A DNA stretch of 20,982 nucleotides from a virus. The notes below the pieces were generated by a model. It worked only from the letters and a program-made list of their open reading frames with translations. It did not search any database and had not been told where the DNA came from. Where the stretch lies: positions 1-20,982 of IMG/VR virus record IMGVR_UViG_3300028394_000360. One strand, 5' to 3'. The position numbers and the translations under genes are program-made. Numbering within the stretch: the first letter of the stretch is position 1; each line of letters opens with the position of its first letter. Shown one piece after another: positions 13,813 to 20,903 of this stretch.

Positions 13813-14146
13813 ACGGTCTCCATGTTCGTAGTCGGGAACCGCAACCACACGAGTTGTCCTTGCGGAAAGCGAAACGCTTCCCTTGGACCGTCGTGACAGT
13901 GGTGTCGTCAGTTTTTGATGCAGAGCCGTGGAATGTGGTGGGAATGATTTCCTCTTTGAACACGAGAGACGGCCCGTGCGGGGAGTCTTGGGCTATAAGA
14001 ATGTGCGTGTCGGAGACCACGATGCGAACGGAGTCCATACGACGGATAGAGGGGTGGTTCGGGGATGTGTTCGAAGTGATGGGGTCTCGGTAGTCCGAAC
14101 CAGCGAGGACAAACAGGGCGGGGAAAACGTCGCACTTTACTTTCAT
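13793..14146 (-). CDS. Small conserved phage protein with CGCGSRL motif, 117 aa
   Basis: Begins with ATG overlapping the stop of the upstream regulator (ATGA). The product reads as beta-rich: VRIVVSDTHILIAQDSPHGPSLVF in the middle and a C-terminal FRKDNSCGCGSRLRTWRPYDS, a motif I recall from small conserved proteins next to the packaging/head genes of actinobacteriophages. Two Cys two residues apart could bind metal but the protein lacks a complete Cys4 set. Function unknown. Its last 20 nt overlap the DUF1360 start, so the three genes are translationally coupled. Confidence 0.8.
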   Translation of the reverse strand: MKVKCDVFPALFVLAGSDYRDPITSNTSPNHPSIRRMDSVRIVVSDTHILIAQDSPHGPSLVFKEEIIPTTFHGSASKTDDTTVTTVQGKRFAFRKDNSCGCGSRLRTWRPYDSLTA

Positions 14147-14658
14147 TTGGCTACCTTACCAAGACGCTTCGCCATTGCGCGATAAGTGACGCCAGTCGCG
14201 TCGGCGAGTTCCTGAACCGTCACGCCTTGCTCGTGGAGTTCTTTGGTCAGGTCAGTCAGCCAGTAGTTGGCAAGTCTGGCAGGGTGGTTGGGGGACATCT
14301 TTGAACGGAAAGTCTTAGCGTGCGGGCCGAGTGTCTGTAGTTTGTCGCGGTCCTCCTCGGAGATACCCGGTGAAACTGGACGGCGGGGAACGTACTCGGC
14401 TGGGGTGACGAGCGTCGGCGACGGAGGAGTATGTTCAAGGACATCGGGACGGCTATATAGATGTGCACGCTCAACCCACGTACGAATTGTGGAACGGGGA
14501 CGAGGATTCGGGAGGGCCTCCCCGATGGAGCGGAGGGGCCAACCTGCCTGATACAGGACGAGACAACGTACATCTATATCTCTTTGGTCCTTCAGGCTAC
14601 GCAGGAACTCCACCTCTGAGAGGGGGATAGATTGTCCTCTGGCTGGCCTGCGAGTCAT
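14143..14658 (-). CDS. Two-HTH DNA-binding protein, first gene of head operon
   Basis: 171 residues from the ATG ending at 14658. Two helix-turn-helix segments flank a Pro-rich linker: N-terminal about 30-66 (YQAGWPLRSIGEALP...TIRTWVERA), C-terminal about 140-167 (GVTVQELADATGVTYRAMAKRL). The linker contains LQTLGPHAKTFRSKMSP, matching the layout of the protein at 20376-20903 (LRELRPLASQVRGKSP), so the two are paralogues. This type is frequent in actinobacteriophages and is thought to bind DNA as a regulator, or as a small-terminase-like factor when next to packaging genes; neither is proven here. The start is chosen because TATACT lies exactly 6 nt upstream, predicting a leaderless mRNA; a GTG 15 nt earlier would include the -10 box. 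Its stop overlaps the next start. Confidence 0.8.
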   Translation of the reverse strand: MTRRPARGQSIPLSEVEFLRSLKDQRDIDVRCLVLYQAGWPLRSIGEALPNPRPRSTIRTWVERAHLYSRPDVLEHTPPSPTLVTPAEYVPRRPVSPGISEEDRDKLQTLGPHAKTFRSKMSPNHPARLANYWLTDLTKELHEQGVTVQELADATGVTYRAMAKRLGKVAK

Positions 14659-14664
14659 TAGATT

Positions 14665-14670
14665 AGTATA
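14665..14670 (-). promoter_or_regulatory. -10 box of the head operon, leaderless start
   Basis: TATACT on the minus strand ends 6 nt before the ATG at 14658. No convincing -35 is seen at 17 nt (ACAGTA). Transcription would begin at or next to the A of the ATG, giving a leaderless message for the first gene of a transcription unit of more than 14 kb. Confidence 0.55.
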
Positions 14671-15437: not shown

Positions 15438-15455
15438 GCGCGACACGCCCGAGAT
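15438..15455 (+). repeat. 18-bp element upstream of plus-strand promoter, copy 1
   Basis: GCGCGACACGCCCGAGAT recurs at 16695-16712 with one change. Here it ends 9 nt before the putative -35 at 15465. Both copies are followed by an A-rich stretch (AAAAAATA). Likely binding site for an activator or repressor of these two promoters. Confidence 0.6.
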
Positions 15456-16143: not shown

Positions 16144-16161
16144 CTCAAAAAACATACACTT
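16144..16161 (-). repeat. Junction repeat copy 1 (AAGTGTATGTTTTTTGAG)
   Basis: First of seven copies of an 18-bp sequence found only between transcription units. It lies after the terminator of the 96-aa gene and before the promoter of the WGR gene, reading towards lower coordinates (opposite to both flanking genes). Position 8 is T. Confidence 0.9.
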
Positions 16162-16645: not shown

Positions 16646-16663
16646 AAGTGTACGTTTTTTGAG
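16646..16663 (+). repeat. Junction repeat copy 2 (AAGTGTACGTTTTTTGAG)
   Basis: Lies 48 nt after the terminator of the WGR gene and 59 nt before the -35 of the next gene, same direction as both genes. The variable position 8 is C here. Confidence 0.9.
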
Positions 16664-16694: not shown

Positions 16695-16712
16695 GCGCGA
16701 CACTCCCGAGAT
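16695..16712 (+). repeat. 18-bp element upstream of plus-strand promoter, copy 2
   Basis: GCGCGACACTCCCGAGAT, 17 of 18 identical to 15438-15455, ending 10 nt before the -35 at 16723. Confidence 0.6.
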
Positions 16713-17026: not shown

Positions 17027-17044
17027 AAGTGTAGGTTTTTTGAG
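17027..17044 (+). repeat. Junction repeat copy 3 (AAGTGTAGGTTTTTTGAG)
   Basis: Lies between two convergent units: 29 nt after the terminator of the plus-strand Cys4 gene and 2 nt from the terL stop codon at 17047. Confidence 0.9.
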
Positions 17045-17046
17045 CG

Positions 17047-18456
17047 CTACCGCGAGCCGAACAACCGCCCGCCCGTTCGCCCACCGCGTCCAAGCGTGAT
17101 GCGCTTTCCCGCCACCGAGCGAGCCGTAATGTTCCCGCCCAAGAAACCAGCGGGGGGCTTGATGAGCAACGCCGTAAGCGCGTGAACAAGCGCGTCCACA
17201 CGGTCTGGGGATTTGCCCTCGCCCGGTATCCACGACGTCATCTGACTTTCGAGTTCAGCAATAAAACCAATATGGTGAACGCGCCCTTGTTCATACGCGA
17301 GCGTAATCGGTTCTGCCCTCAACGCTTTTCCGTACTTCGAGTGAACTTCCAATACTTGGATTGTCGGGTCGATTGTTTGGATTGCGTTCCGCACGAGCGC
17401 ACCACCTTGATTGACTTCCGCAACGACGGGGCAACCCCACTTGCGAGCCATTGCCACAACCCGTTGCGCCCACACCGTAGGTGAGCCAAGTACCGACGCG
17501 TCTTCGAGTACCCACGATTGACGCTTGTAAAGGTCACGTTCACTTGTTGACGCGACAACGATAATCCCACACTCATCTCGCGGGTTCTCTGCCACCGACG
17601 GGTCGACGCCGATTACGCGCAACGGTACACCCGACGGCATACTGTTCTGTCTGTGGTTCTCAATGAGTTCATCTGTCCACAACGCGCCCTCAACCGAGTC
17701 CAGCATCTCACCATAAAGTTCTTGACGAGCCAACCGCGTACCCGCGTAGACGCCCGTGATTGCTTCCATATACGCACCCGACAAGTTACCCGCGTTGTCC
17801 ATTGTCGAACCGCGTGATATCCAGATTTTCTTGCCCGCTTCTTTTTCCGCGATTAGGTCGTACAAAACTTTTACGCGCTTCGGCGTTGTCGTCGCAAAGA
17901 TTTGCGGGTTGCTTCCCAAACGAGTAGCGACGCGCAAGTTATCCCACGACGTCATTCCCGCAGCGTCTGGCGTCTGACGCCACGCTGCCAATTCATCTGC
18001 CCACGAGTAATGTGCTTGGACACCACGCAAGGAGTCTGGTTCATCTGCCGTTGCGAGCAACGCCGTGTTCCCATTTGGCCAGGTCAGTCGTCGCTTCGAC
18101 GGTTCATACAAAGGTCGTTCCGACGGCGGGGTGACATTCAGAATTCCCGAATCGCCCTCAACGATAACGTCACGAACGTCCGCTGCGGTACGAGCAACTA
18201 AAAGAAAACGCAAACGCCCTTGCGAACTGTCCTTCGCTTTTTCACGAACCCACTCTGCCGCAGCGCGGGTCTTGCCCGCACCACGTCCACCGAGATAAAG
18301 TCCGACGTTCCACGAAACGTCCATTGGTGGTCGTTGTTCGGGTCGTCCCCAGAACTGCCAGTCCCATAAAAGATTGTCGGGGTCAATACCCGCGAGTGCT
18401 TCCGCTTTCTCCCCTTCGGGGAGTTCAGAAATGATTTGCGCGAGTGACTTTGCCAT
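17047..18456 (-). CDS. terL: Terminase large subunit (ATPase-nuclease)
   Basis: 469 residues, normal for a phage large terminase, the motor that cuts and packages DNA into the prohead through the portal. ATPase: Walker A GGRGAGKT (56-63), Walker B ending HYSWADE with the catalytic Glu at 155, and coupling motif TTTPKR (189-194). Nuclease: VIGVDPS (Asp 285), AEVNQGG (Glu 347) and SPDRVDAL (Asp 421). All key residues are present. The start is the ATG ending at 18456: TATGAT lies exactly 6 nt upstream and GGA 4 nt upstream. A longer frame to 18519 would translate the junction repeat and lacks support. terL stands as its own unit between two junction repeats, about 2.4 kb and three opposite-strand genes away from the portal operon; no recognisable small terminase is adjacent, though the two-HTH proteins are candidates. 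Confidence 0.95.
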   Translation of the reverse strand: MAKSLAQIISELPEGEKAEALAGIDPDNLLWDWQFWGRPEQRPPMDVSWNVGLYLGGRGAGKTRAAAEWVREKAKDSSQGRLRFLLVARTAADVRDVIVEGDSGILNVTPPSERPLYEPSKRRLTWPNGNTALLATADEPDSLRGVQAHYSWADELAAWRQTPDAAGMTSWDNLRVATRLGSNPQIFATTTPKRVKVLYDLIAEKEAGKKIWISRGSTMDNAGNLSGAYMEAITGVYAGTRLARQELYGEMLDSVEGALWTDELIENHRQNSMPSGVPLRVIGVDPSVAENPRDECGIIVVASTSERDLYKRQSWVLEDASVLGSPTVWAQRVVAMARKWGCPVVAEVNQGGALVRNAIQTIDPTIQVLEVHSKYGKALRAEPITLAYEQGRVHHIGFIAELESQMTSWIPGEGKSPDRVDALVHALTALLIKPPAGFLGGNITARSVAGKRITLGRGGRTGGRLFGSR

Positions 18457-18462
18457 TGTTCC

Positions 18463-18468
18463 ATCATA
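18463..18468 (-). promoter_or_regulatory. Extended -10 box of terL, abutting junction repeat 4
   Basis: TGGTATGAT on the minus strand is an extended -10 (TG-N-TATGAT). It starts 3 nt after repeat copy 4, whose 5' end occupies the -35 position at a 17-nt spacing. The ATG follows after 6 nt, predicting a leaderless message. Confidence 0.6.
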
Positions 18469-18471
18469 CCA

Positions 18472-18489
18472 CTCAAAAAACCTACACTT
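18472..18489 (-). repeat. Junction repeat copy 4 (AAGTGTAGGTTTTTTGAG), inside the terL promoter
   Basis: Lies 21 nt after the T-tract of the upstream unit's terminator and 3 nt before the extended -10 of terL, in the direction of terL. It is the only copy that forms part of a promoter. Confidence 0.9.
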
Positions 18490-18510: not shown

Positions 18511-18540
18511 GCAAAACAAAAACCCCCGCCGAAGCGGGGG
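18511..18540 (-). terminator. Rho-independent terminator after the two-TM gene
   Basis: On the minus strand CCCCCGC (18540-18534), TTCG loop, GCGGGGG (18529-18523), then TTTTTGTTTT. It lies 14 nt after the stop codon. Confidence 0.88.
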
Positions 18541-18554
18541 CTTTGTGTTCGGGC

Positions 18555-19026: not shown

Positions 19027-19061
19027 GCAACCAGACTTGCGTGTCGCCCTTCTCCCCGCGA

Positions 19062-19079
19062 CTCAAAAAACCTACACTT
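19062..19079 (-). repeat. Junction repeat copy 5 (AAGTGTAGGTTTTTTGAG)
   Basis: Lies 21 nt after the T-tract of the preceding terminator and 35 nt before the -35 of the 59-aa gene, in the direction of transcription. Confidence 0.9.
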
Positions 19080-19402: not shown

Positions 19403-19420
19403 AAGTGTATGTTTTTTGAG
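19403..19420 (+). repeat. Junction repeat copy 6 (AAGTGTATGTTTTTTGAG)
   Basis: Lies 21 nt from the T-tract of the terminator on its right and 31 nt from the -35 at 19371, reading opposite to both flanking genes. Position 8 is T. Confidence 0.9.
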
Positions 19421-20058: not shown

Positions 20059-20076
20059 AAGTGTAGGTTTTTTGAG
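20059..20076 (+). repeat. Junction repeat copy 7 (AAGTGTAGGTTTTTTGAG)
   Basis: Lies 55 nt upstream of the -35 of the DUF6011-like gene and about 104 nt after the terminator of the 32-aa gene, reading opposite to both. The rest of this gap (20077-20180) holds no gene I can support. Confidence 0.9.
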
Positions 20077-20375: not shown

Positions 20376-20903
20376 TTATGACTTTGATTTCAGCACTTGG
20401 TATGAACCACCGTCGCCGTTCAGTTGGGGCATATACCCGTACCGAGCCAGACGGAAGCGGATACTCGCGGGCGTTACGCCCAACCGCTTTGCCAGACGAT
20501 AAATTGTCACGCCCTCGACCGTCCGAGCGTGGTTGAGTAGTCGTGAGAACTCCTCGCCCTCTGCCCGAAACGCGGGAGATTTTCCGCGCACTTGGGAAGC
20601 GAGCGGACGCAATTCACGCAACCGCGCAAGAGTTTTTTCGCTTGGCTCGATATAGACGGGCTTCATCTTTTCGGCAACGACGGGCGGAAGCGGGATATGG
20701 TCGAACACAATTCCGACGGCAGTAGCCGACGCAATCTGTCGTACTCGTTCCCGCGTAATTCCCGTTGCCTCGGAAATACTTTGGAGTGTCCACCCCGCGT
20801 TACGGAGTGCCGTGATGTAATCGTTTCGTTCGTTGATACCTAGCGTTGTAAACTTTTTATGGACTTCGCTAGGCAAGGTTAGGTTCGTTTTTCGAAACCG
20901 CAT
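20376..20903 (-). CDS. Two-HTH DNA-binding regulator, 175 aa
   Basis: ATG at 20903 with AAAGGA about 10 nt upstream. N-terminal sigma-region-4-like HTH at 35-60 (NAGWTLQSISEATGITRERV), linker with LRELRPLASQVRGKSP (95-110), C-terminal HTH at 131-156 (GVTIYRLAKRLGVTPASIRF). Same architecture and linker motif as the regulator at 14143-14658, so a paralogue. It probably controls transcription; an inverted repeat overlapping its own promoter (20929-20956) suggests autoregulation. It could also be the protein that binds the 18-bp junction repeats, but nothing direct shows that. It has no terminator before the micro-gene promoter. Confidence 0.85.
   Translation of the reverse strand: MRFRKTNLTLPSEVHKKFTTLGINERNDYITALRNAGWTLQSISEATGITRERVRQIASATAVGIVFDHIPLPPVVAEKMKPVYIEPSEKTLARLRELRPLASQVRGKSPAFRAEGEEFSRLLNHARTVEGVTIYRLAKRLGVTPASIRFRLARYGYMPQLNGDGGSYQVLKSKS

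Follow-up and report, generated by a model that had tools for sequence, protein, structure and literature searches.

Sequence comparisons support the conclusion that a short repeat, dispersed at the junctions between most early genes, is a conserved part of the promoter of terL, the gene for the large terminase, in two lineages of large actinobacterial phages that we call F1 and F2. The starting point is a virus record of 20,982 bases, itself a fragment and hereafter the window, in which the 18-mer AAGTGTANGTTTTTTGAG has seven exact copies, four on the plus strand and three on the minus strand, where dinucleotide shuffles give a chance expectation of 0.03. The copies and the elements around terL are these:

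16144-16161, minus strand: junction repeat, exact match, antisense to local transcription.
16646-16663, plus strand: junction repeat, exact match, sense.
17027-17044, plus strand: junction repeat, exact match, between convergent units and adjoining the terL stop, with no promoter nearby.
17047-18456, minus strand: terL, large terminase, matching PHROG terminase large subunit families with E down to 2e-24.
18463-18471, minus strand: extended -10, TGG-TATGAT, read from the sequence; columns -16 to -7 (10/10) are invariant in the four F1 genomes.
18472-18489, minus strand: terL copy of the junction repeat, AAGTGTAGGTTTTTTGAG, exact match, kept in the relatives L008-L010.
18519-18544, minus strand: intrinsic terminator of the upstream unit, an 11-pair stem with a T tail that ends about 30 nt before the repeat and lies in the same place in L008-L010.
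19062-19079, minus strand: junction repeat, exact match, sense.
19403-19420, plus strand: junction repeat, exact match, antisense.
20059-20076, plus strand: junction repeat, exact match, antisense.

Read along the minus strand, AAGTGTAGGTTTTTTGAG (18489-18472) is followed by TGG (18471-18469), TATGAT (18468-18463), GGAACA (18462-18457) and the ATG of terL (18456-18454), with TATGAT starting 3 nt after the repeat. Because only 6 nt separate this -10 from the ATG, the terL message is predicted to be leaderless. The sequence confirms the proposal of the first-pass annotation that a repeat is built into the terL promoter, in that a copy abuts the -10 and a -35 is absent: a promoter scan found no sigma70-type promoter pair at terL. 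Some details had to be amended. The repeat was said to end 3 nt before TGGTATGAT, which fits the T-run only, as the whole 18-mer directly precedes TGGTATGAT and ends 3 nt before TATGAT. Its start had been placed where a -35 would stand at 17-nt spacing, and the hexamer found there is AGAAGT, unlike TTGACA, the best match over spacings of 15-19 nt reaching 2/6. The statement that all other units have a separate -35 is true of five of the six; the exception, the copy at 17027-17044, sits promoterless between convergent genes. Read-through from upstream as the sole source of terL message is unlikely, since a strong terminator precedes the repeat.

We also considered a host origin of the repeat and rejected it: the exact pattern was found in genome contigs in 33 stretches of unrelated bacteria and archaea, one copy each, which looks like chance. 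A second short element, GCGACACGC or a close variant, occurs in the window at 15440-15448, 16697-16705 and 19039-19047, as well as in G006, G009 and A3Wally, and in several lineages it often precedes promoters by a few tens of bases. The idea that every lineage shares this site was dropped: it is mildly enriched in some lineages, with 8 copies versus 0.8 in G006, and absent in the Cece stretch.

The closest relatives, L008, L009 and L010, have a TerL 87-88% identical to that of the window and form with it the four F1 genomes; all three keep AAGTRTAGGTTTTTTGAGTGGTATGAT, then 6 nt, then ATG, upstream of terL. Themselves fragments, they contain, with up to 3 mismatches allowed, 18, 23 and 22 copies of the repeat respectively. 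Most F1 copies separate the terminator of one unit from the TTGACN-17-TANNNT promoter of the next, and those not at terL stand at variable distances of 13-90 nt from complete TTGACA-type promoters. Relative to local transcription, 28 F1 copies are sense and 36 antisense, four convergent copies being left out. GG is the central dinucleotide of 21 of the 28 sense copies versus 1 of the 36 antisense ones (TG or CC are mostly antisense), a link whose p-value of 5e-10 is too small because orthologous junctions were treated as independent. In each of three relatives one repeat copy (L141:10326-10343, L142:9321-9338 and L144:8888-8905) falls within coding sequence, near the 5' end of a gene, and encodes in frame the peptide SLKKGTL or SLKKDVL.

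More distant relatives, the F2 lineage, carry CCTGGGTTGCCANTTTTTCNNTG at the same place upstream of terL. A pattern derived from it has 13, 17 and 6 dispersed copies in G012, G016 and G017, versus 2, 5 and 0 for a reversed control, and the looser consensus GGTNNCCNNTTTTTCCATG recovers 54 copies, 50 of them intergenic, with 24 sense and 22 antisense. On these patterns F2 has a junction repeat of its own, similar in build to that of F1 and different in sequence, with one copy again in the terL promoter. F2 repeats often form facing pairs that could fold into a hairpin (G012:73295/73335, 77894/77934 and 82818/82859; G016:70407/70448).

What sets the terL copy apart is its position. Taking a repeat as abutting when a -10 matching at least 5 of 6 bases lies within 5 nt of it, a -10 is abutted by 4/4 terL copies versus 1/66 others in F1 (70 copies), and by 3/3 versus 0/51 in F2 (54 copies), with the reservation that copies within one lineage, like orthologous junctions, are not independent. 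In all seven terL cases, four from F1 and three from F2, the -10 starts 3 nt after the repeat, in the same orientation and with a leaderless start. The one other abutting F1 copy, at L141:8806 in a relative, is 5 nt from its -10 (TAGAAT) and is leaderless as well. Conservation follows the same limits: upstream of terL in F1, 26 of 28 columns from repeat to -10 are invariant versus 16 of 76 further upstream, and in F2 the repeat and -10 box have 17 invariant columns of 24 versus 3 of 76.

Two of the rival explanations leave this position unexplained. In the first, the repeats would be linkers, conserved boundaries for cassette swaps by homologous recombination, with the terL copy one of many. 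Most cassette borders do carry one copy, the genes of the region being small and variable, and the blocks of terminator, repeat and promoter look like a shuffling cassette. However, 18 bp with changing bases offer poor homology, and linkers would explain neither the conservation of the terL copy nor its being the only one 3 nt from a -10 in both lineages, whose repeats differ; we consider this explanation improbable. The second would have the repeats organise the genome, as sites for a partition, nucleoid or replication protein that are intergenic by chance. Having 18-23 sites scattered over about 20 kb in both orientations would suit such a role, but their placement follows terminators and promoters, the site is asymmetric and the fixed terL geometry would go unexplained, which makes it the least probable of the readings, and a very improbable one.

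Homologues of terL were found in 154 viral stretches, and the nearest to the TerL of the window in the phage collection are those of Actinomycetia phage DSL-LC01 and of large Microbacterium phages, Cece and A3Wally among them. L011 and L012, both of which are without the arrangement, group with F1 in the TerL tree, and F2 lies elsewhere; F1 and F2 are not sisters, lineages that lack the arrangement coming between them. The arrangement either arose twice or is old and was lost several times. It is not a universal feature of terL: the stretch upstream of terL is not dispersed in G009, G011, G013, G014, G015, G018 and G020, and in DSL-LC01 the repeat is absent upstream of terL. G014, G015, Cece and A3Wally have junction repeats that differ in sequence. 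The repeats of DSL-LC01, G011, G009 and G013 include a -10 and all point in the same direction, upstream of genes. In the first part of DSL-LC01 (L176, positions 1-46000) there are 32 copies of CTAAAGWTGTTATAATWG, for instance at 33229, 34361 and 40583, upstream of genes on the coding strand and often flanked by GATTC and GAATC; it appears to be a dispersed phage promoter with TATAAT. In Cece (L177 28000-42000, and L181), genes 11-45 recur near the other end of the record as genes 313-347, so the region with the junction repeats may form a long terminal repeat.

Among 33 distinct terL upstream sequences, most of them without a repeat, the -10 scores 4.33 of 6 versus 2.78 in shuffled sequence and lies mostly 6-7 nt from the ATG, and the best -35 scores 2.36 versus 2.90 shuffled. 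The first-pass annotation held that the terminase promoter lacks a normal -35 and carries the repeat instead. The absence stands; the repeat as substitute for a lost -35 does not, because lineages free of the repeat are also without a -35 at terL, and the repeat is then not the cause of its absence. Judging from these sequences, the -35-less state is a property of this terL promoter, and in F1 and F2 the repeat occupies a position where other lineages have no -35 either.

We tentatively read the repeat as a stoperator-like site of a putative lineage-specific phage DNA-binding protein, with the role of an operator at terL; this is quite possible, if short of probable. The same protein would bind every copy. 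Bound between units, in the order terminator, repeat, promoter and in either orientation, it would form a roadblock or an insulator. At terL, whose leaderless extended -10 promoter has no -35, the copy spans about -33 to -16, and a protein bound there would therefore control terL initiation, presumably by occluding RNA polymerase, with terL off while the protein is present and on later. Since the site overlies the spacer and reaches the TG of the extended -10, such a binder is more likely to repress than to activate. The arrangement suggests that the binder would also time the start of packaging. The sequences show the repeats, their placement, the geometry common to the two lineages and the absent -35; that a protein binds, which way it acts and its part in timing are inferred. 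Counting against an operator are the terL promoters of other lineages, which have no repeat, and the lack of orientation bias of the repeats here.

The reverse effect has a precedent. T4 middle promoters consist of a MotA box and a -10, without a -35, MotA being the activator and AsiA its co-activator. The terL promoter resembles them in having a conserved box just upstream of the -10 and no -35, and a box at about -30 replacing the -35 is found here as well, a likeness limited to the geometry of the terL promoter. The repeat could accordingly be the box of a phage late activator that replaces the -35 contact, the -10 being weak without it. That terL has no -35 in any lineage speaks for this, as does the repeat at terL, which in F1 and F2 alike sits right before the -10 and always points the same way, its orientation being variable elsewhere. 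But with its end 3 nt from the -10 the site overlies the spacer, a usual position of repressors; the other copies lie near complete promoters that should need no help; and other lineages manage without the repeat. MotA boxes, besides, are promoter elements, whereas most repeat copies here are outside promoters. On balance we regard an activator, the main rival reading, as unlikely, though less so than linkers.

As candidates for the protein that would bind the repeat, the first-pass annotation had put forward two proteins of the window:

20376-20903, minus strand: two-HTH protein A, its first HTH matching Pfam Sigma70_r4 above the cut-off, followed by a second HTH (model pLDDT 87).
14143-14658, minus strand: two-HTH protein B, a distant paralogue of A by Pfam and cross-lineage alignment.

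Both are genuine candidates for DNA binding and are widespread, and in the cross-lineage alignment their recognition helices (TRERVRQI; RFRLARYGY) are almost unchanged across lineages with unrelated repeats. Since these nearly invariant helices do not covary with the repeat, A and B are unlikely to be its binders. Protein A had no match in the complete DSL-LC01 genome, and a PDB fold search with its model returned none at E<=0.001. Pfam found no HTH or other DNA-binding domain in 20 proteins from the early regions of relatives. Protein B has an apparent leaderless promoter of its own at 14659-14670 (TATACT, 6 nt, ATG), without a clear -35 and without a repeat; this promoter and a long block upstream of it are conserved in three relatives.

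The nearest parallel to the stoperator-like reading is in cluster A phages, in which it is established that one protein binds sites in promoters and in intergenic gaps (PMC9283540). As with the stoperators of L5 and TipsytheTRex, about 20 asymmetric sites per genome that lie mostly in short intergenic gaps and in a few cases within promoters, with a consensus that differs between lineages (PMC9283540, PMC6550527), the F1 repeat is a non-palindromic 18-mer with 18-23 copies in three fragmentary relatives, in line with the roughly 20-30 occurrences per genome expected of such sites. Stoperators, however, are 13-14 bp long, oriented with transcription and bound by the immunity repressor of temperate phages, which in cluster A is a two-domain monomer. 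Their blocking depends on orientation (PMC9283540). The repeat is 18 bp long and follows no orientation rule in F1 or F2, for which reason we do not class it as a stoperator; nor is an integrase or repressor annotated in the stretches of Cece that were examined.

Two other clusters offer partial likenesses. Microbacterium cluster EC has an asymmetric 18-bp motif in 12 copies within small intergenic regions, including the space between terminase and portal genes (PMC7302621), but it lies 22-30 bp upstream of start codons (PMC7302621), unlike the terL repeat, and its consensus, TAGaCTATaGGTgTaAgC, compared by eye, is unrelated to those of F1 and F2. The sections of PMC4351075 drawn on here describe 17-bp repeats in cluster O mycobacteriophages, phages not obviously temperate, with more than 30 dispersed copies, many of them intergenic. 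In those sections they are palindromes (7-bp inverted repeats around a 3-bp spacer), about a third in coding regions, and no place in a terminase promoter is described for them. Neither the F1 nor the F2 repeat is palindromic. The function of both the EC motif and the cluster O repeats is given as unknown (PMC7302621 and the same sections of PMC4351075).

Several actinobacteriophage clusters thus have dispersed intergenic repeats without an assigned function, and the constant arrangement at a single essential late gene, common to two lineages whose repeats differ, would tie such a repeat to the transcriptional control of packaging. A broader reading, which we hold doubtful, is that throughout this group of large actinobacterial phages a dispersed site that changes across each genome together with its putative binder forms a single switch, closing early units and controlling the first packaging gene, two lineages having independently come to carry their own version of the site at terL. 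The leaderless, -35-less terL promoter is conserved over a large group of phage contigs, and its arrangement in F1 and F2 would lend itself to a simple reporter test of what the repeat does.
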